This document shows, in pieces, positions 17,734-52,539 of a stretch of 64,000 nucleotides of DNA. A program made the position numbers and the translations under genes. This DNA comes from Phycisphaerales bacterium (GTDB lineage Bacteria > Planctomycetota > Phycisphaerae > Phycisphaerales > UBA1924). The stretch is from positions 1 to 64,000 of the forward strand of contig RECY01000030.1 of the NCBI GenBank assembly GCA_007693785.1, written 5' to 3'. The notes beneath the pieces were generated by a model that had not been told where the DNA came from, did not search any database, and saw only the letters and a program-made list of their open reading frames with translations. Each line of letters begins with the position of its first letter. Position 1 is the stretch's first letter.

Positions 17734-17844
17734 ACGCCGGGACGGATGACGGACCGCTCGTGAGGGTCTGTGCATGAGGGGCGGGGTTTCGCGTGAGGGT
17801 TGGGCGGGCACGGGGGCGTGCCGCGACGTGAAAGGTTGACGCGT

Positions 17845-20800
17845 ATGGACGTTGTGAAGCTGTCGATCTCCAAGCCCGTGGGCGTGACGGTCGGCGTGCT
17901 GCTGCTGGTGATGTTCGGGCTGATCGGGCTCACCGCGATCCCGATCCAGCTCACCCCGACGGTCGATCGCCCGATCATCACCGTCGAGACCGACTGGCCC
18001 GGGCGCACGCCCGAAGAGGTCGTCGACGAGATCACCAAGGAGCAGGAAAAGCAGATCAAAAACGTCAGCAACCTGAAGCGGATGGTCTCCACCAGCCGCG
18101 ACGGCGGTGTCACGATCACGCTCGAGTTCACGCTCGGGACCAATATCAACCGCGCGCTGCAGGAAGTCGGCGACGCGCTCCGCCAGGTGCCCGACTATCC
18201 CGAAGAGGTGACCGAGCCGAGGATCAAGGCCGCCGACGGCGCCAGCGAGAACGCGATCGCGTGGATCATCCTCGACATCGCGCCCGAGGCACGCGAGAAG
18301 CACGCCGGCTTCGACCTCACCACCCTCTTCGACGCCCTCGACCGCGAGGTCAAGCCCTTCCTCGAGCGTGTGGACGGCGTCGCGGAGATCAACATCTACG
18401 GCGGGCGCGAACGCGAGGTCCGCGTCTACGTCGATCCGACCAAGCTCGCCAACCGCGGCCTCAACCACCTCGACATGATCGAGGCGCTCCGCAACGAGAA
18501 CCGCAACATCACCGGCGGCACGATCGCCGAGGGCAAACGCGACTACCGCGTCCGCGTGACCGGGCAGTACGAGGAGCCGCGGGAGATCCTCGACACCATC
18601 ATCGCCTATCGCGACGGGCGCCCCGTGTTCGTCCGTGACGTCGCGACCGTCGAGCTCGGGCACCAGAAACGACGCGGCTTTGTACGCACCCAGGGCGTCC
18701 CCGCGATCGCGATCAACGCCATCCGCCAGCAGAACGCCAACGTTGTGCAGGTCATGGAGGAGCTCCGCGAGCGTCTCGACGAGGTCCGCGCCGACATCCT
18801 GCCCAACATCGCCCCCGGCGTCGGGCCCGATCTCCGCCTCACCCAGGTCTACGACGAAACGATCTACATCGATTCCTCGATCAGGCTCGTGACGCAGAAC
18901 CTCTGGGTCGGCGGCACGATTGCCGCGATCGTGCTGCTCATCTTTTTGCGATCCTTCGTCAGCACGGGCATCGTCGCGATCGCGATCCCCGTCTCGGTCA
19001 TCGGCACGTTCCTCGTCCTGCTCGCCTTCGGGCGAACGCTGAACGTCATCAGCCTCGCCGGGCTCGCCTTCGCCGTCGGCATGGTCGTGGACAACGCGAT
19101 CGTCGTGCTCGAGAACATCTACCGCAGGCTCCAGAGCGGCGAGCCGCCGATGGTCGCGGCCTACCGCGGGGGCAAGGAGGTCTGGGGCGCGATCCTCGCC
19201 TCCACGCTCACGACCGTCGCGGTCTTCGTCCCGGTCATCACGATCCAGGAAGAAGCCGGGCAGCTCTTTCGCGACATCACCCTCGCGATCGTCGCGAGCG
19301 TCTCGCTGAGCCTGTTTGTCTCGATCACCGTCATCCCCGCCGCCTGCTCGCGCTGGTTCAAGCCTGTCCGCAAAGAACGCCACGGGCGGATCCGCACGCT
19401 CTGGGAGGATCTGTTCGGCCTCGGCCCGCTCTGCGCCAGGCTCGTCCATGGGCTCGGCTCGGGCATCAAGTGGATGATCACCGGCTGGCGAGGCTGGACG
19501 ATCCGCCCGGCCGTCATCGTCACCATGATGACCGCCAGCATCACCGCCGCGATCGTCCTCGCACCGCCTCTTGACTATCTGCCCGCCGGCAACCGCAACC
19601 TCGTCTTCGGCGGCATGCTCATCCCCCCGGGGCTCAGCATCGAGCAGCAGGAGCTGCTCGCCGAGCGGGTTGAGGCGGTCATCGCGCCCTACCAGCTCCA
19701 CGGCGGGCGCACGATGGAGGAGGTCCTCCGAGACGCCCCGCCGATCAGCAACATCTTCGACCCCACCGCGCCCACCTTCGACCCCGTTCCCATCGACAAC
19801 TTCTTCATCGCCGGCTTCCAGGGCGGCATGTTCGCCGGCGCCACCAGCGCCATCGACGAGGTCGTCATCCCCGTTGGCACCATCCTCAGCAACGCGATGA
19901 GCGGCACCAGCCCCGACGTCTTCGGCGGCGCACGACAGACCTCCCTCTTCGGCATGGGCGCCGGCGGCGGCAACACCATCGATATCGAGATCTCCGGGCC
20001 CAACCTCGCCAACGTCATCGCCGCGACCGAGATGATGTACGGCATCGCCGGGCAGAAGTACGGCTTCGGCGTCGGCGTCGCCGCCGAGCCTTCCAACTTC
20101 AACCTCCAGCAGCCCGAATACCGCGTCCGCGTCAACGACGCCGGCAGAAGACTCGGGCTCTCCACCAGCGCCGTCGGCACGGGCGTCCGCGCGCTCTTCG
20201 ACGGCGCGTTCGCCGGCGAGTTCCGACTCCCCGACGACAGCGTCGATCTCGTCCTCGTCCCCACCGGCGGCCGGCTCGAATACAAGGAGCAACTCGCTTC
20301 AATCCCCATCTGGACCCCCGGCGGGCGCATCGTCCCGATGGACTCGGTCGTGGACGTGATCCCCGGGCTCGCGCCGCAGCAGATCCAGCGCGTCGAAGAG
20401 CTCCCCAGCGTGATCCTGAAGGTCACCCCGCCGCAGGGGCGCGCGCTCGAGGACGTCATGCGTGAGATCCGGCGCGAGATCATCGAGCCCGCGCGCCAGG
20501 CCGGGCTGATCGACCGCACGATGCGCGTCCGCCTCGAAGGCACGGCCGCCAAGCTCGACGAGGTGAACTCCGCCCTCTTCGGCGCCAACCCGAACCCGCC
20601 CGACGGGAGCAACGGGACCGCGGGCGGGCGAGGGGCCGCCGGGCTCTTCGGACGCGTCGCGGGCTTTGGGCTCATCGCCCTGGGCATCGGCGTTGCGGTC
20701 TACGCCGGCGTCAAGGCCGTGCGCCAGAAGAAGGTTTCGCTCGCGTACGGCGCCGCCGGCGCGATCCTGCTCGGGGGCGTTCTCGCGACGCTCACCATCA

Positions 20801-21495
20801 CCTTCGGCGACAACCCGCAGTTCATCACCGCCCGCTTCATCTGGGCGCTGGCCGTGACGTACCTGCTGATGTGCGCACTGTTCGAGAGCTTCGCCTACCC
20901 GTTCGTGATTATGTTCAGCGTGCCGCTCGCGGTCGTGGGCGGGTTTGTCGGGCTCAAGATCGTGCACGAGCTGAGTATGCGCGATCCGACCATCGCCCCG
21001 CAGCAGCTCGACGTGCTCACGATGCTCGGCTTCGTCATCCTGATCGGCGTCGTGGTGAACAACTCGATCCTGCTCGTGGACCGGGCGTTGCAACAGATGC
21101 GAGGGCACGACGGCGAGGTCGTGGGGCGGTACGACGCGATCGCCTACGCCGTGCGCACCCGGGCGCGCCCGATTCTCATGGGCACGATGACCTCGGTCGG
21201 CGGGATGTCGCCGCTGGTGCTGTTCCCGGGCGCGGGGAGCGAGATGTACCGCGGGCTCGGGTCGGTGGTGATCGGCGGCCTGCTGTGCGCGGCCGTCTTC
21301 ACGCTCGTGCTGGTCCCGCTGATGTTCAGCCTGATGCTGGACATGATCAGCGGCCTCCGCCAGGCGCTCGGCATGTCGACCGACGCCGTCAGCCGACCGG
21401 AGGACGACTGGTCGCACCCGCCGACCCAGGACGCGAAGCGAACCCCCAAGCCCGACCCGAGGCCCGAGAACGGCCGAACCCCCCTCCCCGCCTGA
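17845..21495 (+). CDS. RND-family efflux pump, inner-membrane subunit
   Basis: A 1216-residue proton-driven RND transporter (AcrB/MexF/SwrC-like) expected to export toxic small molecules. TM1 (about 10-30) is followed by the first porter domain, then TM2-6. The TM4 motif GMVVDNAIVVLENIYR has one Asp, with Asn at the second position, as in SwrC-type pumps. TM10 has VVVNNSILLVDRAL, also of that type. About 75 extra residues lie between the second porter domain and TM8. They include a Gly/Asn/Pro-rich linker and two added hydrophobic segments (FGLIALGIGVAVYAG and GAAGAILLGGVLATLTITF), making it longer than the usual 1030-1050. The ATG at 17845 has GAAAGG nine bases upstream. No outer-membrane TolC-type gene is present in the window. 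Confidence 0.94.
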   Translation: MDVVKLSISKPVGVTVGVLLLVMFGLIGLTAIPIQLTPTVDRPIITVETDWPGRTPEEVVDEITKEQEKQIKNVSNLKRMVSTSRDGGVTITLEFTLGTNINRALQEVGDALRQVPDYPEEVTEPRIKAADGASENAIAWIILDIAPEAREKHAGFDLTTLFDALDREVKPFLERVDGVAEINIYGGREREVRVYVDPTKLANRGLNHLDMIEALRNENRNITGGTIAEGKRDYRVRVTGQYEEPREILDTIIAYRDGRPVFVRDVATVELGHQKRRGFVRTQGVPAIAINAIRQQNANVVQVMEELRERLDEVRADILPNIAPGVGPDLRLTQVYDETIYIDSSIRLVTQNLWVGGTIAAIVLLIFLRSFVSTGIVAIAIPVSVIGTFLVLLAFGRTLNVISLAGLAFAVGMVVDNAIVVLENIYRRLQSGEPPMVAAYRGGKEVWGAILASTLTTVAVFVPVITIQEEAGQLFRDITLAIVASVSLSLFVSITVIPAACSRWFKPVRKERHGRIRTLWEDLFGLGPLCARLVHGLGSGIKWMITGWRGWTIRPAVIVTMMTASITAAIVLAPPLDYLPAGNRNLVFGGMLIPPGLSIEQQELLAERVEAVIAPYQLHGGRTMEEVLRDAPPISNIFDPTAPTFDPVPIDNFFIAGFQGGMFAGATSAIDEVVIPVGTILSNAMSGTSPDVFGGARQTSLFGMGAGGGNTIDIEISGPNLANVIAATEMMYGIAGQKYGFGVGVAAEPSNFNLQQPEYRVRVNDAGRRLGLSTSAVGTGVRALFDGAFAGEFRLPDDSVDLVLVPTGGRLEYKEQLASIPIWTPGGRIVPMDSVVDVIPGLAPQQIQRVEELPSVILKVTPPQGRALEDVMREIRREIIEPARQAGLIDRTMRVRLEGTAAKLDEVNSALFGANPNPPDGSNGTAGGRGAAGLFGRVAGFGLIALGIGVAVYAGVKAVRQKKVSLAYGAAGAILLGGVLATLTITFGDNPQFITARFIWALAVTYLLMCALFESFAYPFVIMFSVPLAVVGGFVGLKIVHELSMRDPTIAPQQLDVLTMLGFVILIGVVVNNSILLVDRALQQMRGHDGEVVGRYDAIAYAVRTRARPILMGTMTSVGGMSPLVLFPGAGSEMYRGLGSVVIGGLLCAAVFTLVLVPLMFSLMLDMISGLRQALGMSTDAVSRPEDDWSHPPTQDAKRTPKPDPRPENGRTPLPA

Positions 21496-21533
21496 GCACT
21501 CCCGTCCGAGCATTCAAGGCGCCATCCATCCTG

Positions 21534-21590
21534 CCCTCCCCCGCCCCAGCGGGGGAGGTGCCGAGCGCAGCGAGGCGGAGGGGGCTCTCC
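21534..21590. repeat. Dispersed GC-rich repeat, copy 1 (intergenic)
   Basis: A 57-base unit starts with the hairpin CCTCCCCCGC / GCGGGGGAGG, continues with a GC-rich middle and ends with GGAGGGGGCTCTCC. A closely matching inverted copy lies at 27515-27569 inside the VanZ-MurJ gene. This copy sits in the gap between the convergent pump and decarboxylase genes and could act as their transcription stop. Confidence 0.8.
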
Positions 21591-21612
21591 CCGCATGCCG
21601 ACATCTCGCCCC

Positions 21613-23121
21613 TTACCCCGCCGCGTCATCGATCAGCGCCCACAAGTGATCCACGTCCGCCGCCTCGGTCGTCGTCGCCCCGATCGCGACCCGCGCCAGG
21701 TACGACGGCGTGCGCACGCCCCCCGCGCCCGCGACCGGCGCAACGGTGTGGGTCAGGAACGCCTCGCCGCCCGCATTGATCCGCTCGACCAGCGCCCGCG
21801 TCGCGTCATCCCCCGCGCGGCATCGGAACGTCACCAGGCTCAGCGACCGCGCCAGCGGCAGCTCGAACCGCGCATCCGCGCGCAGCCTCGCCTCCAGCCC
21901 GCGTGCGAGTTCAACGTGGTTCGCGATGTACGCCCGCAGCCCGCTCAGCCCGTAGTGGCGCAGCACGAACCAGAGCTTGAGCGCCCGGAACCGTCGCCCC
22001 AGCGGCACGTGCCAGTCTCGGTAGTCGATGACCTGCCCGCTTTCGCTCGCGGCGTTGCGCAGGTACTCGGGCGTGATCGACATCGCCTCGGTCAGCGAGC
22101 GCCGGTCGCGCGTCCAGAACAGGTCGCAGTCGAAGTTGGTCAGCAGCCACTTGTGCGGGTTGACGCAGAGGCTGTCGGCGTGCTCGATGCCGTCGAGCAT
22201 CCCGCGGTGCTCGGGGCAGACCAGGGCCGCCCCGCCCCACGCGGCGTCCGCGTGCAGCCAGGCCGGGCCGGCCGCCGGGTGCGCGTGCGTGCGCACGGCC
22301 TCGGCGATCGCCGGCACCGGGTCGAACGCGCCCGTCCCCGTCGTCCCCAGCGTCGCCGCGACAAAGACGGGCACGCGCCCGCGCGCGACGTCTTCGGCGA
22401 GCATCGAAGCGAGGGCCGACGCGTCCAGGCGCAGCCCGTCGTCGGTCGGCACGAGGCGCACCCGCGCCCGATCGCTTGCCGACCGCGCGATCCCCGCGAC
22501 CATCGCGGCCTTCACGATCGAGCTGTGGCTCTGCTCGGACGTATAGCACGTGAAGACCGGGTCAGGCCCGTCGTCGTGCTCCACGCCCATCGCGCGACGG
22601 CAGCGCGCGCGCCCCGCGACCATCGCCGCGAGCGCCCCCTCGCTCGCGGTCCCCTGGATCACGCCCCCGCCGAGGCGCCCGTCGTTGTCCGCGTCTGAGC
22701 GGAAGCAGGGCGGCAGCCCAAAGGCCTCGGCCAGCCAGTCCAGCATCCGCGTCTCGATCTCCGTGACGGCCGGCCCGGTCGACCAGAGCATGCCCTGCGC
22801 CCCGAGCCCCGCGGAGACGAGCTCGGCGAGGATCGCCGGACCGCTCGCGTTGCACGGGAAATACCCGAAAAAACGCGGGTGCTGCCAGTGCGTGAGCCCC
22901 GGGAGCACGATCGCGTCGAGGTCGCGCACGATCGCGTCCCAGTCGCCCTCAGGGGCCGCGGGCGGGGAGAGCGGGAGCTTGGCGGCCGTCTCGCCCGGCG
23001 AAACGCTCGGCGTCACCGGGCGACGCCCGACGCTCGCCATGTACGACGCCGCCCAATCGATCAGCTCGCGACCGACGCGGCGAAACTCCTCCGGCGACAT
23101 GTGCGGCACAGGCTCAGGCAT
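21613..23121 (-). CDS. Aromatic-L-amino-acid / group II PLP-dependent decarboxylase
   Basis: A 502-residue cytosolic pyridoxal-phosphate enzyme that decarboxylates an aromatic or related amino acid to an amine. Lys324 in NPHKWLLTNFDC is the PLP-binding lysine. His199 (SEQSHSSI) would stack on the cofactor and Asp292 in LHADAAWGG binds the pyridine nitrogen. The HPRFFGYFP and GGGVIQGTASEG segments are typical of the DOPA/tryptophan decarboxylase branch, and the length fits (about 480-510). The start at 23121 is chosen because the frame upstream runs into the palindromic repeat at 23155-23190. Substrate choice (Phe, Tyr, Trp, DOPA) cannot be read from the sequence with certainty. It stands alone, with no transporter gene next to it. 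Confidence 0.92.
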   Translation of the reverse strand: MPEPVPHMSPEEFRRVGRELIDWAASYMASVGRRPVTPSVSPGETAAKLPLSPPAAPEGDWDAIVRDLDAIVLPGLTHWQHPRFFGYFPCNASGPAILAELVSAGLGAQGMLWSTGPAVTEIETRMLDWLAEAFGLPPCFRSDADNDGRLGGGVIQGTASEGALAAMVAGRARCRRAMGVEHDDGPDPVFTCYTSEQSHSSIVKAAMVAGIARSASDRARVRLVPTDDGLRLDASALASMLAEDVARGRVPVFVAATLGTTGTGAFDPVPAIAEAVRTHAHPAAGPAWLHADAAWGGAALVCPEHRGMLDGIEHADSLCVNPHKWLLTNFDCDLFWTRDRRSLTEAMSITPEYLRNAASESGQVIDYRDWHVPLGRRFRALKLWFVLRHYGLSGLRAYIANHVELARGLEARLRADARFELPLARSLSLVTFRCRAGDDATRALVERINAGGEAFLTHTVAPVAGAGGVRTPSYLARVAIGATTTEAADVDHLWALIDDAAG

Positions 23122-23154
23122 CGCCCAAGCGTAGCGGGAATACGGATGAGGACG

Positions 23155-23190
23155 CCGGAGCACTGACCTTGCGGACAAGGTCAGTGGCAC
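23155..23190. repeat. Single arm of the TGACCTTG palindromic element
   Basis: A 36-base palindromic arm contains ACTGACCTTG and CAAGGTCAGT around a CGGA centre and ends in GTGGCAC. It is identical in its core to the arms at 25826-25861 and (inverted) 52391-52426, but here the second arm of the composite is absent. It lies just upstream of the decarboxylase start. Confidence 0.85.
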
Positions 23191-23217
23191 ATGCGGAGGG
23201 CGTGATCTTCCCTGTCC

Positions 23218-23359
23218 GGTGCCCCGGAAACGCGGAGCCGCTGCGGCGCAGCTTTTCCGGGCTTCCCGTTCTTTGCCTGTTCTTGGTGGAGTTCAGCACC
23301 GTCCGCGCCCGGCATGGAAAAGCTTCGGCCGCGGACGGCCTGCGCGTTTCCATGGCACC
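23218..23359. repeat. Composite palindromic element, CCGGAAA/CATGGAAA family, copy 1
   Basis: A 142-base element bounded by inverted GGTGCC (23218) and GGCACC (ending 23359). It has two hairpin arms: arm A pairs CCGGAAA with TTTTCCGG (23224-23260), and arm B pairs CATGGAAA with TTTCCATG (23313-23354). About 50 bases of non-palindromic spacer lie between them. The other copies are at 24669-24815 and, inverted, at 56615-56762. No open frame or transposase lies inside. Confidence 0.85.
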
Positions 23360-23389
23360 GATCGCGGGAGGATTGGAAGAACACCGACC

Positions 23390-23839
23390 TCAGCCCGCGC
23401 TGGCGGCCGTCGGCTCCATCGGGCGGTACTCCGGCCCGGGGCGGAGGTGGACGTCGATCCGGCGCGCCTCGGCCGGGGGGACCAGCAGCGTGTTGTTCTT
23501 CCGACCGAAGAACGTCTTTGCCTCGTACATGTCCCACCGCATCATCGCGGGCGTCTCCGGGTTCTCCCGCTCCCGGTTCTCGTAGAACCGGAACGTCAGC
23601 TGCTGCCCGACCGGGATGTCCACGGCCCAGACGATCTCGCCCGTCCGCGTGTCGACGAGCTCGACGGTCTTCGGCGTGTGCGGCTGGGAGAGGTAGGTGT
23701 ACTGATCGAGCGAGTGCAGCGAGCCGCCCGTGCGGTAGGGGCCGGCGAAGCAGCCCGCGAGCGTCGACGCCAACGCGGCCGCGATAAGGGCGGCGGCGAT
23801 CGGGGCGGTGCGGGCACGAAGGGGTCGGCGGGTCGTCAT
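23390..23839 (-). CDS. Predicted small lipoprotein, unknown function
   Basis: A 149-residue protein with a lipoprotein signal: an Arg-rich start (MTTRRPLRAR), a hydrophobic core, then the lipobox LAGC with Cys30 as the lipidated residue. The mature part of about 120 residues is mostly beta and is recognisable only by short stretches (VELVDTRTGEIVWAVDIPVGQQL and a RENPETPAMMRWDMYEAKTF region). This makes it look like a membrane-bound lipoprotein conserved in planctomycetes, but no family is assigned. The ATG at 23839 has GGAGA seven bases upstream; the much longer open frame upstream overlaps the divergent ispF promoter region and is not supported. A composite palindromic element lies just downstream of its stop. 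Confidence 0.8.
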   Translation of the reverse strand: MTTRRPLRARTAPIAAALIAAALASTLAGCFAGPYRTGGSLHSLDQYTYLSQPHTPKTVELVDTRTGEIVWAVDIPVGQQLTFRFYENRERENPETPAMMRWDMYEAKTFFGRKNNTLLVPPAEARRIDVHLRPGPEYRPMEPTAASAG

Positions 23840-24089
23840 GCGTGGTCTCCGGTCATCTCGTCGCCGGGGCATCGCCCGGGGGTTCAGGCAGAGTGTATCG
23901 GCCCGGCGGGGCGGGGCGCGTGAGGCGGGCCCGCCGGTTCGCGGGCGTGGATTTCGGGCCGTATGCTCGCACCCGGCCAGCCAACGGGCCAGAGTCGCGG
24001 GCGTGCCGGGGTGGTACGCCCGAGAACACGCCCCGGATCGCGCCGAGCCGCCGCCCCGGAAGACTCGGCACCCCGCGAGGACCCGCCCC

Positions 24090-24638
24090 ATGACCGACGC
24101 CCCGCCGATCCGCATCGGGCACGGCTACGACCTGCACCGCCTCGAACCCCTGGACGCCCCGCCCGCGCCGTCCGCCGCGGGGAAGCCCTCGTCGGACGCG
24201 CAACCCGTGCGCCCGCTGATCCTGGGGGGTGTGCGGCTCGAGCACGACCGCGGGCCGATCGGGCATTCCGACGGGGACGCGCTCTACCACGCCGTGACGG
24301 ACGCGCTGCTCGGGGCGATCGCCGAGCCGGACATCGGGCAGCTCTTTCCGGACACGGACCCGCGCCACGACGGGGCGGAGTCCCGGGTGTTCGTGGCGGA
24401 GGCGCTGCGACGCGTGCGGGCGGCCGGGTACGCGGTGGGGAACCTCGACGCGACGGTGATCCTGGAACGCCCGAAGCTCGGCGCGCACAAAGCGGCGATG
24501 CGGGTGAACCTCGCCGAGTTGCTGGGGGTGGACATCTCGCGCGTCAACGTCAAGGGCAAGACGCACGAGCGTGTTGACGCGGTAGGAGAGGGGCGAGCGG
24601 TCGAGGTGCACGCGGTGGTGGTGCTGCAGCGGGAGTGA
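24090..24638 (+). CDS. ispF: 2-C-methyl-D-erythritol 2,4-cyclodiphosphate synthase
   Basis: A 182-residue enzyme of the MEP isoprenoid pathway. It cyclises 4-diphosphocytidyl-2-C-methyl-erythritol 2-phosphate to MEcPP with release of CMP. Metal ligands Asp14 and His16 (GHGYDLHRL) and His59 (GHSDGDALYHAVTDALLGA, here split over 58-75) match the family, as do the FPDTDPR and KLGAHKAAM stretches. An insertion of about 11 residues, PAPSAAGKPSS and neighbours, separates the first strand from LILGGVRL and makes it longer than the usual 157. The ATG at 24090 has GAGGA nine bases upstream. No ispD is seen nearby. Confidence 0.96.
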   Translation: MTDAPPIRIGHGYDLHRLEPLDAPPAPSAAGKPSSDAQPVRPLILGGVRLEHDRGPIGHSDGDALYHAVTDALLGAIAEPDIGQLFPDTDPRHDGAESRVFVAEALRRVRAAGYAVGNLDATVILERPKLGAHKAAMRVNLAELLGVDISRVNVKGKTHERVDAVGEGRAVEVHAVVVLQRE

Positions 24639-24668
24639 AGGCGGAGGGCGATTGGCGTGCGCACCTTT

Positions 24669-24815
24669 GGTGCCCCGGAAACGCGGAGCCGCCGCGGCGG
24701 AGCTTTTCCGGGTCTTACCTTCTTCATTCGCTCGATGTGTCAGTGATCGCGGTCCGTATGCCGGCATGGAAACGCTGCGCCGCCGCGGCGGTCGGCTCCG
24801 CGTTTCCATGGCACC
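24669..24815. repeat. Composite palindromic element, CCGGAAA/CATGGAAA family, copy 2
   Basis: A 147-base element with the same layout and orientation as the copy at 23218: GGTGCC start, arm A (CCGGAAA to TTTTCCGG), spacer, arm B (CATGGAAA to TTTCCATG), GGCACC end. It fills most of the gap between the convergent ispF and SDR genes. Confidence 0.85.
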
Positions 24816-24836
24816 GGACATGGTGGGCTTCTTCGC

Positions 24837-25670
24837 TCAGCGTTCGGCCTTTTTCAGTCCCTTTCGCACGGCCGTCCGCAGCACGCGGTCGGTCATGCCG
24901 GGCATCGCGTTCGCCATCGCGAACATCGTGCGCGCGCCGAGGCTTGTCCAGACCTCGCCGCCGCGGGGGTGGCGGAGGCGGCGGACGATCGCTCGGGCGA
25001 CCTTCTCCGGCGGCTGTCGCACGGCGTCGGGCGTCGGGAACGCGAGCTTGCCGCTGCTCGAGCGCGTGGCGGCCGTGTCGAAAAACTCAGTCTTCGTCCC
25101 GATCGGGTGGACGGTGCTCACGGCGATCTTCTCGCTGGCGAGTTCGGCGCGGAGGGCGCGCCCGAGGTGGTCTTGGGCCGCTTTGGTGGCGCAGTATGGC
25201 CCGTAGTACGGCACGCCGAGCTTGCTGAGGCAGCTCGAACACATCAGCACGTGCCCGCCGCTGTTGTGCGCGCGCAGTCGCTCGATCGCGGGGCGAACGA
25301 TGTGGAGCGATCCCCAGACATTGGTCTCGAAGATGTCGCGGAGGGCTTGATCTTCGTCGTCGGTGAGCACGGAGCCCTCGTAGCCGTACCCGGCGTTGGC
25401 GAAGGCGGCGAAGAGCGGGCCGAAGGCGCGTTCGGTCTTGTCGATCAGGCGTCGGCACGCGTCGGGGTCGGTCACGTCGCACTCGATGGCGATCGCGCGC
25501 CCGCCGCTAGCTTGGATCTCGGCGGCGAGGGCTTGCAGGCGGTCGGTGCGTCGGGCGCCGAGGGCGACGGGCATCCCCGCTCGCGCGCACGCGCGGGCCG
25601 TCGCGGCCCCGATCCCGCTCGAAGCGCCGGCGATCGCGATCGGCTTGTTCGTCAGGTCGATTCTGGGCAT
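24837..25670 (-). CDS. Short-chain dehydrogenase/reductase
   Basis: A 277-residue NAD(P)-dependent oxidoreductase of the classical SDR family. The cofactor motif is GASSGIG near residue 13. GARRTDRL follows the second strand, where the Arg suggests NADPH preference. The NAG motif is in FANAGYGYEG. The active site has Ser in CSSCLSKLG and the YxxxK pair in PYCATKAA. The C-terminal part from about 220 (KVARAIVRRLRHPRGG) extends past the fold, as in many membrane-lipid SDRs. Two in-frame ATGs (25676 and 25670) lie close together; GAAGA sits six bases before the second. The substrate is unknown. It is flanked by repeats on both sides, so it is probably transcribed alone. Confidence 0.88.
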   Translation of the reverse strand: MPRIDLTNKPIAIAGASSGIGAATARACARAGMPVALGARRTDRLQALAAEIQASGGRAIAIECDVTDPDACRRLIDKTERAFGPLFAAFANAGYGYEGSVLTDDEDQALRDIFETNVWGSLHIVRPAIERLRAHNSGGHVLMCSSCLSKLGVPYYGPYCATKAAQDHLGRALRAELASEKIAVSTVHPIGTKTEFFDTAATRSSSGKLAFPTPDAVRQPPEKVARAIVRRLRHPRGGEVWTSLGARTMFAMANAMPGMTDRVLRTAVRKGLKKAER

Positions 25671-25714
25671 GACCATTCTTCGCAGGTCATGGCTTCGATG
25701 GATGCGAGCTCCCT

Positions 25715-25861
25715 GTGCCACGGACCTCTTCCGAGAGGTCAGTGCTCCGTGTCCTTCTCTCTTCTTCAACGCTCGCCTGGGTTTGAGTTGTCAGAACTCG
25801 GGGTGGGGAGAGAGGGAAAGGCGGGCCGGAGCACTGACCTTGCGGACAAGGTCAGTGGCAC
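25715..25861. repeat. Composite palindromic element, TGACCTTG family, copy 1
   Basis: A 147-base element bounded by GTGCCAC and GTGGCAC. The left arm (25715-25749) pairs GACCTCT with AGAGGTC, and the right arm (25826-25861) pairs ACTGACCTTG with CAAGGTCAGT. The spacer includes AGAACTCGGGGTGGGGAGAG. A homologous inverted copy is at 52391-52539. It lies between the MurJ stop and the SDR start. Confidence 0.85.
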
Positions 25862-25892
25862 ATCCGGATCGAGCCGAGCGATTGGTCTGGCG

Positions 25893-28055
25893 CTACTTGC
25901 GGACGAGTTGGCGCAGCTCCGGCTGGCGGAAGGCGGCCGAGGCGAGGGCGTAGGTCATCAGCCCAACGACCACGCCGCCCGTCAGGCGCAGCGCCCACGT
26001 CGCCCACGTGTCCTCGCCCCATGGCACCAGACGCTGCACGCCCAGCACCGCGACCGCGAGCAGCGCGCTGCACGCGAGCGTGCGCGCGCCGGAAGCGAAG
26101 ACGCCGCCGGACCACGGGCTCCACCCGGCTTTGCGCTGCAGGAGGACGCTGAGCGCCACCGTCTGCCCCATCGCGACGAGGGCCGTCGCGAGCGCGAGCC
26201 CGGCCTCGGCGAGCGGCCAGATCAGGATCAGGTTCAGCAGGAGGTTCGCGACCAGCGTCCAGAGCGCCACACGCAGCGGCGTCCGCGTATCGCCCTGCGC
26301 GTAGAAGGCGCGGGTCCAGAGCTGGTTCAGGCTGTAGACCCAGACCGCCAGCCCGTAGCAGACGAGCACGAGCGTCGCGCGACGCGCGCCCGCGGCGCTG
26401 AAGCCTAGGTCTGAGCCCTCGGGCGCGCGGAAGAGGACGCGGACGAGGTCCGGCGCGACGAGCAGGAGACCGACGGTCGCGGGGACGCCGATGAAGAGGC
26501 TAAGGCGGACGCCGCGTCGGAGTGTGTCGGCGAACGCGCCCGTGCCCGTGCGCACGTCGGCGGCGCTGCGCGCGAGCATGGGGAAGACGACGGTCGCGAC
26601 GGCGATGCCGAAGACGCCGAGCGGGAACTGGTAGAGGCGTTGCGCGTAGAAGAGGATCGCGTTGCTCTCCGGGTCGAGCGGGTAGTCGGTGCCGAAGACG
26701 GTCGGCCCGACCCAGACGGGGTACATCGCGACGAGGGTGTCGAGCAGGGCGGAGAGCTGGACGGTGCCCATGCCGAGGACGACGGGGCCGAAGCGTCGGA
26801 GCGTGCGCCGGACGGGGTCGCGCAGCTCGGCGAGCGCGGGCGCGTCGGGGCGCTGCCAGCGGACGTGGCGACGGAGGGCGAGCAGCGCGAGGGCGATCTG
26901 GAGGAGCCCGGAGACGAGGGCCGCGATCCCGATCGCGTAGGCGGCGGTGACGGGCGCGGGGTCTGTGCGCACGAGGAAGGGGATAGCTGCGGCGATGATG
27001 CAGAGGTTGAGCAGCACGGGCATCGCGGCTGAGGGCGCGAAGCGGTGGTGCGTCTGGAGGATCCCGCCGAGCAGCGCCGCGACGCAGACCATCGGCATAA
27101 ACGGGATGAGGAGCATGATGAGGCGCAGGCTGAGCGCACGATCCGGGTCGTCGCCAGCGATGAGGAGAACGGCGAGCAAGGCGAGCTCGATGACCACCGT
27201 GAGCGCGCCGGTGAAGAGGGCGAGGGCGGCGACGGTGAGGCTGGCGAAGGCCTGGGCGCGTCTCGGGTCGTTCTTGTCGAGGGCGGCGTACTCGGGGATG
27301 AAGGCGGCGGCGAGTGCGCCCTCGCCGAAGAGGCGTCGGAAGAGGTTGGGGATCGCGAACGCCGCGGCGAACGCGGAGCCGACGGCGGTGTCGCCGAAGA
27401 TGCGCACGGTGACCAGGTCGCGTGCGAGCCCGAGGACGCGGCTGACGAGGGTGATGAGGCCGAACGTGCGCACGCTGGCGGCGAGGGAGGGGGTGGGCGT
27501 TGTGGCTGGATCGAGGAGAGCCCCCTCCGCCCGCTGCGCGGGCACCTCCCCCGCCGGGGCGGGGGAGGGCGGAGGCGTGGCGCTCGCGGGCTCGGGGGAG
27601 AGGGCGGCGGTGAGTTGTTTGCCGAAGGGGATGGTGATCGCGAGGACGGCGGCTGTGGCGAGGGCGATGCCGAGGAGGTTGGCGAGGTAGTCGTCGAGCG
27701 CGACGGTGCGCCCGAGGGCGGGGATGCCCTGCGTGCTCTCGTTGATCGCGGCGAAGACGGCGGCGACAAAGAACGCGCGGACGACCGTCCTCGGTCGCAG
27801 CCAGTCGCCGAGCAGGTTGCTCGCGATGAGCAGGATGGTGAACCCGCCGAAGGCGGTGAGGTGGAGCGCGAGGTCGGGGCGGTGGAAGTCGCCGATGTCG
27901 ATGGTCAGGCGGGGCCAGTGCGTGCCGAGGCAGAGGGCGACGGTGTAGAGGATGAAGGCCGCGAGGCGGAGCTTGGGCGCGGTCAGCGTGCGCGCGATGC
28001 GGGTGATGCGCGACACACGGGTCGTGCGCGAGCTCGGCCCGGGCTCTGGGCTCAC
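25893..28055 (-). CDS. VanZ-like domain fused to MurJ/MviN lipid II flippase
   Basis: A 720-residue membrane protein. Residues 28-140 are VanZ-like: four hydrophobic helices with DLALHLTAFGGF, AAINESTQGIP, then ALDDYLANLLG, the Glu-Gln and Asp-Asn-Gly pattern of that family. Residues 181-720 are MurJ, the flippase that carries peptidoglycan lipid II across the inner membrane. Evidence is VSRVLGLARDL at the start, FRRLFGEGALAAAFIPEY, and 13-14 predicted helices in the usual length of about 520. The linker (about 150-180) contains PSPAPAGEVPAQRAEGA, encoded by the dispersed GC-rich repeat. The start is a GTG at 28055, overlapping the ParA stop by four bases (GTGA). VanZ proteins are linked to glycopeptide tolerance, but the role of this domain here is unknown. 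Confidence 0.9.
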   Translation of the reverse strand: MSPEPGPSSRTTRVSRITRIARTLTAPKLRLAAFILYTVALCLGTHWPRLTIDIGDFHRPDLALHLTAFGGFTILLIASNLLGDWLRPRTVVRAFFVAAVFAAINESTQGIPALGRTVALDDYLANLLGIALATAAVLAITIPFGKQLTAALSPEPASATPPPSPAPAGEVPAQRAEGALLDPATTPTPSLAASVRTFGLITLVSRVLGLARDLVTVRIFGDTAVGSAFAAAFAIPNLFRRLFGEGALAAAFIPEYAALDKNDPRRAQAFASLTVAALALFTGALTVVIELALLAVLLIAGDDPDRALSLRLIMLLIPFMPMVCVAALLGGILQTHHRFAPSAAMPVLLNLCIIAAAIPFLVRTDPAPVTAAYAIGIAALVSGLLQIALALLALRRHVRWQRPDAPALAELRDPVRRTLRRFGPVVLGMGTVQLSALLDTLVAMYPVWVGPTVFGTDYPLDPESNAILFYAQRLYQFPLGVFGIAVATVVFPMLARSAADVRTGTGAFADTLRRGVRLSLFIGVPATVGLLLVAPDLVRVLFRAPEGSDLGFSAAGARRATLVLVCYGLAVWVYSLNQLWTRAFYAQGDTRTPLRVALWTLVANLLLNLILIWPLAEAGLALATALVAMGQTVALSVLLQRKAGWSPWSGGVFASGARTLACSALLAVAVLGVQRLVPWGEDTWATWALRLTGGVVVGLMTYALASAAFRQPELRQLVRK
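27515..27569. repeat. Dispersed GC-rich repeat, copy 2 (inside VanZ-MurJ)
   Basis: An inverted counterpart of the repeat at 21534-21590, matching over nearly its full length. It is translated in frame on the minus strand as part of the VanZ-MurJ linker. The hairpin CCTCCCCCGCC / GGCGGGGGAGG is intact. Confidence 0.8.
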
Positions 28056-28984
28056 GCCGAAGGCTCGTCCTGGGGCGTGCGTGAAGTCGCGACGACGTGG
28101 ACCGTCGGCGGCTCGGGGGCGTTGTCGGTCGCGTTGTCGGCGTCGAGTGCGGCGAAGGACTCGGCGAGCTTGCGGTAGTCGTTCGCGCCCGGGGCCCACG
28201 GGGCGTACTGGAAGATCGTCTGCCCGAAGCTCGGGCACTCGGCGAGCTTGACGTTGCGCCGGATGTGCGGGTCGAGCACGCGGGCGTCGGCCCAGGGGGC
28301 GTCGGAGCCGCGTTGGGATTCGAGGAACTCGGTCAGGTCGGCGAGGACTTCCTGGGCGTGGGTCGCCTGCGTGTCGTGGGCGCAGAGGACGACGCCGGCG
28401 ACGGTGAGGCGCGGGTTCAGGTTTGTGCGCACGAGCTGGACGGTCTCGAGCAGCTTGCCGACGCCCTGGAGCGCGAGGAAGTGGCTCTGCATCGGGATCA
28501 GCACGCGGTCGGCGGCGGCGAGTGCGTTCAGCGTGAGCAGGCCGAGCGATGGGGGGCAGTCGAAGAAGACGTGGTCGAACCAGCCGTCGATCTTGTTGAG
28601 GGCGGTTCGGAGGCGCTGGTTGCGGTCGGGCTGCCCGGCGAGGTCGCTCTCGGCGGCGGCGAGGTCGGTCTCGGCGGGGAGCAGGCCGAGGTGCTCGTGG
28701 ATGCGCACGATCGCGTCCGGCGTGGCGGCGGGGTCTTCGAAGCAGTCGTAGACGGAGGCGTCGAGGGACGAGGGGTCGACGCCGAGGTGGAGCGTGGCGT
28801 GGGCCTGCGGGTCGAGGTCGACGACGAGGACGCTGTGCCCGGCCTCGGCGAGGGCGGCGGCGAGGTTGACGGTGGTGGTGGTCTTGCCGACGCCGCCTTT
28901 TTGGTTCATCAGGGCGGTGGCGCGGGTCCGGCGCGGGGGCTGGGGGGGATGGACGGGTTTGGCGTTCGATCCTTCTAAGGCCAT
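28052..28984 (-). CDS. ParA/Soj-family ATPase
   Basis: A 310-residue ATPase of the ParA/MinD group, which positions DNA or other cell cargo. The deviant Walker A motif is NQKGGVGKTTTT (signature Lys29, catalytic-site Lys34). Walker A' is LVVDLDPQAH and Walker B is VFFDCPPSLG. The C-terminal half contains LTEFLE and FGQTIFQYAPWAPGANDYRKLA, typical of the Soj branch. There is no N-terminal HTH, so it is not a plasmid repressor-type ParA. No ParB gene is nearby. The stop overlaps the GTG start of VanZ-MurJ by four bases. The ATG at 28984 follows a TATACT hexamer by 8 bases, so the mRNA may have almost no leader; the longer frame upstream crosses the palindromic repeat. Confidence 0.93.
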   Translation of the reverse strand: MALEGSNAKPVHPPQPPRRTRATALMNQKGGVGKTTTTVNLAAALAEAGHSVLVVDLDPQAHATLHLGVDPSSLDASVYDCFEDPAATPDAIVRIHEHLGLLPAETDLAAAESDLAGQPDRNQRLRTALNKIDGWFDHVFFDCPPSLGLLTLNALAAADRVLIPMQSHFLALQGVGKLLETVQLVRTNLNPRLTVAGVVLCAHDTQATHAQEVLADLTEFLESQRGSDAPWADARVLDPHIRRNVKLAECPSFGQTIFQYAPWAPGANDYRKLAESFAALDADNATDNAPEPPTVHVVATSRTPQDEPSA

Positions 28985-28988
28985 GGGC

Positions 28989-28998
28989 GGAGTATACG
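28989..28998 (-). promoter_or_regulatory. Candidate -10 box of the parA-murJ operon
   Basis: TATACT lies on the minus strand about 8 bases before the parA start codon. No convincing -35 box is visible, because the upstream sequence is the palindromic repeat at 29008. The call rests on the -10 match alone. Confidence 0.3.
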
Positions 28999-29007
28999 AG
29001 GTGGCAT

Positions 29008-29097
29008 GGTGGCACAGGTCTCTGAGGTGGCATAGGTCCCCGACCTGTGTCTCTGAAGGCCTGAAGGGGAGGACACAGGTCGGAGACCTGTGCCACC
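29008..29097. repeat. Nested palindromic element upstream of parA
   Basis: A 90-base element bounded by GGTGGCACAGGTCTC (29008) and its complement GAGACCTGTGCCACC (ending 29097). Nested inside is a second inverted pair, CCGACCTGTGTC and GACACAGGTCGG. The whole could fold into one long arm or two smaller hairpins. The GTGGCAC/GTGCCAC ends resemble those of the 147-base elements elsewhere in the window. Confidence 0.85.
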
Positions 29098-29114
29098 AGG
29101 TGGCGGAGGTCAAC

Positions 29115-29150
29115 GAAAAACGGGCGTCCCCGGCTGGGGACGCCCGTCGT
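29115..29150 (-). terminator. Terminator of the giant repeat-protein gene
   Basis: Read on the minus strand, ACGGGCGTCCCC pairs with GGGGACGCCCGT around an AGCC loop and is followed by a T run (TTTTT). It sits 21 bases after the stop of the 2054-residue gene. Confidence 0.9.
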
Positions 29151-29170
29151 GTGTGGGGTTGGGTTGAGGT

Positions 29171-32100
29171 TTAGAGGAGGGTGAAGGGTGTGGGGATGCC
29201 GATGTTGCTGCCGGCGATGCTCCAGCCGCCGGAGAGGAACAGGTCGTAGTGGGTGAGCGTGGCGACGATGGGGAGCGGGGCGGAGACGACAATCGAGAAG
29301 TAGCTCAGCGGGTCGGCCCGGTTGAGGATCTCGGGGGCCTGGTGAAGGAGGAGCTCGGCGAAACCGCCGGCGGCGAGGTCGATGGTGATGGTCTCGACAT
29401 CGCTGTTGAGGAAGAGCAGCTCGACGGTGACGGTGGTGTCCGTGTCGGTGGGGTTGTAGAAGGCGAGGGTCTCGAAGTAGTTCTCGCCGGCGAGGAGGCT
29501 GTTAATGAAGGCGTCGCCGAAGAACCAGCGCTCGTTGGCGATGCTGACGCCGGCGTTGGCGTTGGCTTCGCCGAGCTGGAACTCGGCGGCGGCGACGGCG
29601 ACGGGGATGTCGCTGGTGTAGGTGAGCCCGACGGGCTGGTTGTTGGCGAAGCCGATGCCCGCGCCGCGGAGGACGACGGTCTGCCCGGCGGGGACGTTGA
29701 CCACTCGGAAGTAGTCGGGGAGGTTGACGCGGATGTAGTCGCCGTTGAGGGTGACGACGGCGTCGGTGTCGCCGGGGTTGTGGATGGTGATCTCGGCGGT
29801 GACGCCGCCGCCGTTGATCAGGCGTGTGATGGCGCCGGTGGTGGCGCCGCCGGTGTGATCGCCGAGGATGGCGAAGCCGGCGGCCTCGGCCTGGTTGTAG
29901 TGCGTGAGCGAGGCGACGATGCCCTGGAACGCCGCGTCGTTGGCGGCGTCGGTCGCCTGGGCGGCGATCGTCGCGCCGAAGATGCCGACGGGGAGGCCGG
30001 CGGTCTGGTCGATGTTCCACCCGCCGCGGCGCTCGGCGCCGACGGTGCGGGTCTCGGTGAAGAACCCGCCGTCGGGCAGGGCGACGGTCAGGGTGACGTC
30101 GACCTCGAAGGGGCTGGGGTTGTAGTAGACGAGGAAGTCGAAGACCGAGCCGGGCTGGCGTTCGACGCGTGCGAAGGTCCAGGTGTCGCCGGTGACGTCG
30201 GTGAGCGCGTCGCCGACGGCCGAGTCAAAGTCGTAGCGGGAGAGCGTGCCGGCGAGCGGCCCGTCGCTCTCGAGGATGATGGCGTAGGGGACGTCGGGGG
30301 TGAGCCCGTCGATGATGAAGCCCGCGCCGTCGCTGAGCGTGATCCCGCCGCGAGCGCCCGCGCCGAGGGTAACGTTGCTGACGATGGTGGCGCCGGCGGC
30401 GTCGCCCTCGTACTGGACGCGGAGGGTGTAGGTGACCTCGTAGTCGTTGGGGTTGGCGAGGCTGATGAACTCGCGGATGTCGCTGCTGGCGAAGCCCTCG
30501 GGGTAGTAGAGGGTGAAGACCTCGGGCTCGGCGTTGAAGAAGATCTCGAAGTCGCCGACGGACTCATCGATGCCGGCGATGATGACCCAGAGCTGCTGCC
30601 CGGCGGCGGCCTGGAACTCGAGCGTGGCGGCGGAGCCGGGCACGGGGCCGGCGCTCTCCGCGATGAGGTTCTGCGGGAGCTCGTTGGGCGCGCCGAAGAC
30701 GCTGATGGTCGCGTCGAGGGCGGAGCCGTCGGTGCGGAAGACCTTGATGTAGACGTCGGTGAGGCGTGTGCGTCCCTCGGCATCGGGGACGACAAACGTG
30801 TAGAGGGCGCGGTCGCCGGGCTCGTTGATGGAGCCGTCGGCGCGGGCGTTGCCGGTATTCTGGTTGATGGGGGGGACGGCGGGGTTCTCGAAATCGACCT
30901 CGCCGGGGTCGCCGCCGGGCCCGCCAGGCGAGCCGGGAACGGGCCCGTCGATGAACAGGCGGTACTCGCCGGTGCCGGTGCCGCCGACGAGGACGTAGAG
31001 GCGGTCGCCGATCGCGAAATCTTCGGTGGTGAAGGTGACGACGCCGCCGGCGGCCGCGGAGGCGGTGCCGATGACGCTGCGGCTCTGGTTGAAGATGGTG
31101 AGCGTGGGCGCGTACCCGGGCGCCCCGACGGGGGTCACGGAGATGATGTAGCCGCCTTCTTCGATCGCGACGAAGGTGAACAGGTCGGTGTCGCCCTCGT
31201 AGTCGATCTGCGGGTTGCCGGGGTTGCCCGGCGTGGTCGCGCCGATAAAGGCGTTGCCGGTGATGGTGCTGAACGTCAGCGTCGTGGCGAAGTCGAACGC
31301 GCCGGCGTTGGCGTGGTCGTCGGGCGCGACGGTCAGGACGTCGATGTCGTAGGCGCCCGTCTCGGTCGAGCCGGCGCCGGCGTCGACAACGATGTAGTAG
31401 TCGGTGCCCTGGGCGAAGATCGAGTCGATGACGACGACGCTCGAGCCGGGGTCGAAGGTGGCGACGGGGTCGGTCTCGCCCTCGAAGAAGATCCGCACGC
31501 GCGGGTTGAAGCCCTCGGCGCCGGTGACGGTGATGGTGCCGTCGCCCTGGGCCTTGGGGGTGAAGACAAAGATGTCGCTATCGGTCAACTTCTCGATGAC
31601 GCCGCTCTCGGCGCCCGCGCCGGTCTCGGCATCGATCGGGATCCTCGTGGCGAGGTCGAACTCGCCCTCGTCGGCGTGGTCGTCGGTGGGGTCGAAGGTG
31701 ACGTCGAGGCGGTAGGTGCCGGTCGCGAGGTCGGTCTCGCCACGGACAACGATGTAGTAGTTCGGGAGTTCGAGATCCCCGGTGACGCGCTGGTCGGCGG
31801 GCGTGGGGTTGAAGGTGAACGAACGGCTGGTGCCGGTCGCGGTGTCCACGAAGCCGATGCGTCGGAGGACGACGTTGCCGACGGGATCGACGGTGGACTC
31901 GTAGATCTCGAAGATCGCCTGGGGCGTGTCCACGAGGTCGGTGACGGTGACGGTGACGCCGCCGAAACCGACGGGCTGGATGCTGAAGACGTCGGAGTCG
32001 CCGAAGCTCTCGAACTGCCCGGTGACCGAGGCGGCGCCGAGGAAGTCGTTGAGCGGGATGGGCGTGGCGTTGCCCCAGTCGCCGAAGCGTGCGTGGTCGT

Positions 32101-52390: not shown

Positions 52391-52539
52391 GTGCCACTGA
52401 CCTTGTCCGCAAGGTCAGTGCTCCGGGCCGCCCTTCCTTCTCTCCCCTGCCCCGAGTTCTTTCGCTCAGACCCTATACGAGCGATGGCGGGAAGAAAGAA
52501 CACATGGAACTCTGACCTCTCAGAAGAGGCGAATGGCAC
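52391..52539. repeat. Composite palindromic element, TGACCTTG family, copy 2 (inverted)
   Basis: A 149-base element starts with GTGCCACTGACC (52391-52426 arm, pairing ACTGACCTTG with CAAGGTCAGT), passes through a spacer containing CCCCGAGTTCTTTCGCTCAG, and ends in an arm with GACCTCT and AGAGGC before TGGCAC (52539). It matches the copy at 25715-25861 read backwards, with the second arm more decayed. It lies between rpoD and the convergent DUF2934 gene. Confidence 0.82.

Follow-up and report, generated by a model that had tools for sequence, protein, structure and literature searches.

An in-frame copy of a dispersed palindromic element in the linker between VanZ-like and MurJ domains of a Phycisphaerales protein

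Introduction

The best-known palindromes that code for protein are those of Rickettsia, a genus of intracellular bacteria with reduced genomes. The RPEs found there (Ogata et al. 2000) are 105-150 bp long and stop-free, and numerous conserved proteins of unrelated kinds carry them in frame, as reviewed in two papers (PMC2229807, PMC10969869). GTAG- and CGTC-tagged REPs are small hairpins located mostly between unidirectional or convergent genes, near 3′ ends, and sometimes within open reading frames, including uvrA of the verrucomicrobium Opitutus terrae (PMC3733652). Bacterial MITEs, among them ERIC, Correia/NEMIS and RUP, are small, non-autonomous and able to become joined to genes in frame (PMC2229807). 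On the protein side, direct fusions of VanZ to MviN-type flippases have already been reported in a lipocone survey, the consulted passages of which describe no repeat-derived linker (PMC12419801).

Here we analyzed a 64,000-nucleotide stretch of a 3.06-Mb Phycisphaerales genome (hereafter, the window) containing a gene that joins a VanZ-like domain to MurJ. We consider it very probable (roughly 0.87) that the sequence between the two domains contains a copy of a ~54-bp dispersed palindromic element of Phycisphaerales, read in frame as part of the linker and belonging to a family whose insertions into genes are selected for reading frame. Among the open-access papers searched, none dealt with palindromes translated within proteins of Phycisphaerales. 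The same phenomenon appears here in seven genera of apparently free-living, GC-rich Planctomycetota, with hosts that include the housekeeping enzymes methionyl-tRNA synthetase, CarB and GlmM.

A dispersed two-hairpin element

The window holds two copies of the element (Table 1), one within the fusion gene and one between an open reading frame at 17800-21495, whose sequence reads as an RND-type transporter, and a convergent frame at 21613-23190. A single 29-base pattern matches exactly at 21534-21562 (+) and 27541-27569 (-), with no match expected from 100 dinucleotide shuffles, and the arms at 21533-21562 and 27541-27570 are 97% complementary, bearing out the first-pass annotation, which had described the linker as an in-frame, inverted copy of the repeat at 21534. 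The similarity might instead reflect convergence of GC-rich, Pro/Ala-rich linker sequence with no repeat copy involved, and linkers in high-GC genomes are indeed often Pro/Ala-rich, those of the fused relatives among them. However, a 61-base query matches other copies in the same genome with E-values down to 3.5e-16 and the 29-base pattern is shared by both window copies, so that convergence is contradicted at the DNA level and can be given almost no weight. A search of Rfam returned nothing above gathering score in window positions 21300-29200.

Table 1. Features of the window discussed in the text (positions counted from its first nucleotide)
Feature	Coordinates	Strand	Remarks
VanZ-like/MurJ fusion gene	25896..28055	-	GTG start at 28055; stop-free from there to 25896, 720 codons; overlaps stop codon of upstream ParA-like gene
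VanZ-like domain	27597..28055	-	weak Pfam match, 26.4 bits
Low-confidence linker holding the element	27495..27605	-	residues 151-187, pLDDT below 50
In-frame palindromic element copy	27519..27569	-	read PSPAPAGEVPAQRAEGA, residues 163-179 of 720; covariance-model match 27522-27567
MurJ lipid II flippase domain	25896..27479	-	Pfam, TIGR01695
Intergenic copy of the same palindromic element	21534..21585	+	pattern match, blastn, covariance model

Across the genome, we counted 49 copies with a covariance model of 48 positions and ~41 by blastn. Each unit consists of a first hairpin (CTCCCCCG-loop-CGGGGGAG), a GTG, a second hairpin and GGAGGGG. The second hairpin varies widely in sequence among copies (GTCGGC GCA GCCGAC; GCCCGC GCA GCGGGC; GTCCCGAC AA GTCGGGAC; GCCCCGCC AAA GGCGGGGC), yet remains self-complementary in most. 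RNAalifold detected little formal covariation in the element alignment, with two-sided change in 1 of 9 pairs, probably because the arm of the second hairpin is poorly aligned. The consensus is stop-free in all six frames. When 39 of the copies were placed relative to genes predicted by a rough GC3-based gene finder, 14 lay between unidirectional and 9 between convergent genes, 5 between divergent genes and 2 inside genes, with 9 undecided; the copies lay a median of 66 nt from 3′ ends and 170 nt from 5′ ends. Across the family, which named relatives assign to Phycisphaerales, Planctomycetota, 27 of 81 genomes carry the element, with a maximum of 75 copies; all are draft assemblies and some of them fragmented.

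Several smaller features accompany the element. Its nearly invariant core, GGGGGAGGTG (window positions 27541-27569, all copies), includes a Shine-Dalgarno-like GGAGGTG. Beyond the unit, many copies of this genome continue with an extra stretch plus another palindrome, GTGCCACTGACC...GGTCAGTGCTCCGG. Also dispersed is a second palindrome, GTGCCACTGACCTTGTCCGCAAGGTCAGTGCTCCGG, which comes after the first element in many genome copies; it and its variants occupy window positions 23155-23190, 25714-25749, 25827-25862 and 52391-52426.

Like RPEs, the element is dispersed, palindromic, stop-free and in frame in many unrelated proteins (11 cases here), but it is set apart from them by size (~54 bp against 105-150 bp), by its very high GC content and by its lineage, Planctomycetota. 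With the GTAG- and CGTC-tagged REPs it shares a mostly intergenic setting, in unidirectional or convergent arrangements near 3′ ends, and an occasional intragenic location; whereas a REP is a tag next to one stem-loop, this element comprises two hairpins, the second of which has an interchangeable stem. Element copies carry no fixed terminal tag: no GTAG terminus was present, and CGTC occurred in a single class, inside its variable second stem, and is lost from the other classes. We rejected an explanation as RAYT-driven REPs because element copy number does not track Y1 (RAYT) transposase genes across 81 genomes (Spearman 0.07, p 0.52); the window's own genome gave one weak Y1 match, and the element-bearing genomes G022, G035, G078 and G104 gave none. 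MITEs resemble the element in being small non-autonomous repeats capable of in-frame gene fusion, but are about twice its size, and no target duplication was obvious at the one empty site considered, in Kbl (below), where the relative compared is ~75% identical. On this comparison, the element acts like RPEs and intragenic REPs while probably carrying the defining features of neither family.

A copy within the VanZ-MurJ linker

The identity of the second domain is certain, with MurJ matched at 1.8e-91 and 307.5 bits in Pfam (curated cut-off 27.4) and at 5.6e-95 and 319 bits by TIGR01695 (cut-off 235.55). The VanZ label is weaker: taken alone, the window domain stays below the Pfam cut-off of 30.1 bits, but the VanZ profile gives 30.6 and 41 bits with the homologous upstream proteins in relatives. 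An AlphaFold model built from 26 aligned sequences predicted two helical domains joined by the low-confidence segment listed in Table 1, and since pLDDT there is below 50, the element probably sits entirely within a disordered linker.

The repeat might not be translated as a linker at all, if an internal GTG serves as the MurJ start and the length of the open frame is an accident of the scarcity of stops in GC-rich sequence, and the first-pass annotation had named separate translation of MurJ from an internal start as a finding that would count against it. The element is stop-free in every frame, and ahead of the MurJ helices the frame offers just two further start codons, both GTG, one within the element (residue 171) and one at residue 195; but the Shine-Dalgarno sequence of the former is improperly spaced and the latter has none. 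Moreover, the VanZ-like part has no stop and shows a GC3 of 0.96 in the same frame as MurJ (0.94), so any ribosome translating VanZ must continue into MurJ. An internal start also fails to account for Kbl and the other enzymes described below, because conserved domain lies on both sides of their inserts. We therefore judge separate translation of MurJ very unlikely. Upstream of the ParA-like gene, at 29004-29096, lies a further inverted repeat with motifs GGCACAGGTC and GACCTGTGCCACC.

VanZ and MurJ in relatives

The first-pass annotation had asked whether relatives keep VanZ and MurJ as separate genes and had suggested that a repeat may have joined them here or inserted into an existing linker. 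We located 80 named MurJ loci by searching contigs with a MurJ alignment (the fusion-protein query found none); among the genomes searched, that of the window is the sole species of its genus. In most relatives VanZ and MurJ are separate neighbors that often overlap or nearly touch, or have a gene between them. Fusions with other linkers and no element occur in three genomes of the same family (G026, G064 and G069), and element-free fusions also occur in families f5 and f6, the genomes concerned being G040, G048, G052, G056 and G060 of f5 together with G053. Two more genomes (G045 and G067) place both domains in one open frame according to domain reports that do not include the junction sequence. 

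The element may have inserted at the junction between the VanZ stop and the MurJ start and itself joined the two genes in one frame. This would fit the arrangement in most relatives, where the two genes are separate and adjacent, some of them overlapping by ATGA (in G016) or a few bases apart. The element also lies between a VanZ-like C-terminal tail and a Pro-rich tail resembling the N-termini of MurJ in relatives, and neither side retains a MurJ start codon; from this position, a role of the element in this particular fusion is possible. However, element-free fusions in several lineages indicate that the two genes can fuse in its absence, and the claim that the repeat caused the fusion is not supported. 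We regard joining by the element as a less likely alternative to the preferred reading of a copy residing in the linker. That the element inserted into this linker is suggested by the behavior of its family rather than by comparison with an unoccupied site in this gene.

In-frame copies in other proteins

In-frame copies also occur elsewhere in the same genome and in relatives, which brings the total to 11 cases, spread over 7 genomes from as many genera: the fusion linker and one further intragenic copy in the window's own genome, and nine in six other genera. The second copy of the window genome lies in glycine C-acetyltransferase (Kbl; L002:1002-2396:-), in the same frame as the fusion copy, with the surrounding protein reading ...GRGTHEHFGMCP-PLPSPAPAGEVAAQPTEG-ASSTFNPALGQVDFFTGTLGKALGG... 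Kbl provides a clean empty site, a 54-nt difference between MCPGGAGFQPANGVVD in G016 and MCP, 18 residues and ASSTFNPALGQVD in the window genome. The element was absent from 22 of 22 aligned Kbl orthologues, and PDB chains of Kbl align on either side of the insert, leaving it unaligned.

The cases in relatives comprise methionyl-tRNA synthetase (MetG) of G007, whose congener G061 has a shorter MetG loop without the element peptide; CarB of G008 (L131:3-2582:+); a metal ABC permease (ABC-3) with a DtxR-like tail and a DUF2726 protein in G016; DUF58, GlmM and MqnD in G062; and TruA in G076 and in G071, the latter with two apparent tandem copies. Conserved sequence flanks all nine inserts, the N-side part being short for DUF2726 and MqnD, and inserts occur in both element orientations. 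CarB of G008 also carries several low-complexity inserts beside the element.

Other intragenic candidates were set aside. Four (L029, L023, L017 and L238) lacked a conserved domain despite high GC3 on either side, two (L070 and L008) lay near the end of a doubtful open reading frame, two (L247 and L019) placed the element upstream of a probable start, and two (L114 and L132) were chance matches judged not to be the element.

Frame bias and a proposed route to translated repeats

In 10 of the 11 in-frame cases, hairpin 1 has its 5′ arm in the frame TCC|CCC, giving Ser-Pro or Ser-Ser, a bias toward any one frame expected by chance with P ~4e-4; the remaining frames would encode Arg-rich or Gly-rich peptides. 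Such a bias implies selection, and we infer that insertion is not frame-specific whereas survival is.

In the route we propose, the element would fold as two GC-rich hairpins, remain mostly intergenic and now and then insert into genes. Because the consensus lacks stops in six frames, an insertion of suitable length would add only ~18 residues to a protein. Selection would then retain inserts in surface loops and linkers when translated in the Ser-Pro/Ala/Gly/Glu frame, expected to yield a flexible peptide, and the window copy would occupy an unconstrained linker between VanZ and MurJ and be translated within one protein. Read from sequence, the long frames are presumably translated, the host proteins presumably stay active and the element is probably mobile. 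A broader combined reading, in which the element repeatedly supplies in-frame peptides for loops and linkers under one-frame selection and also bridged VanZ and MurJ here, seems to us rather doubtful.

The frame bias offers a direct handle on what selection permits. Because some genera have copies and others lack them, each gain of a protein loop from selfish DNA can be assigned to a place on a tree and its tolerance tested in ordinary enzymes. The Kbl loop is itself occupied by unrelated sequences in other genera: in G016 (L141) it holds a dispersed palindrome, GGCCGGCTTCCAGCCGGCC, with 15 copies in that genome and 0 in the window genome, and in G024 (L138) a tandem repeat, GGCACGGAGGCACG; the inserts differ in all three genera, so this one loop has acquired three different repeats.
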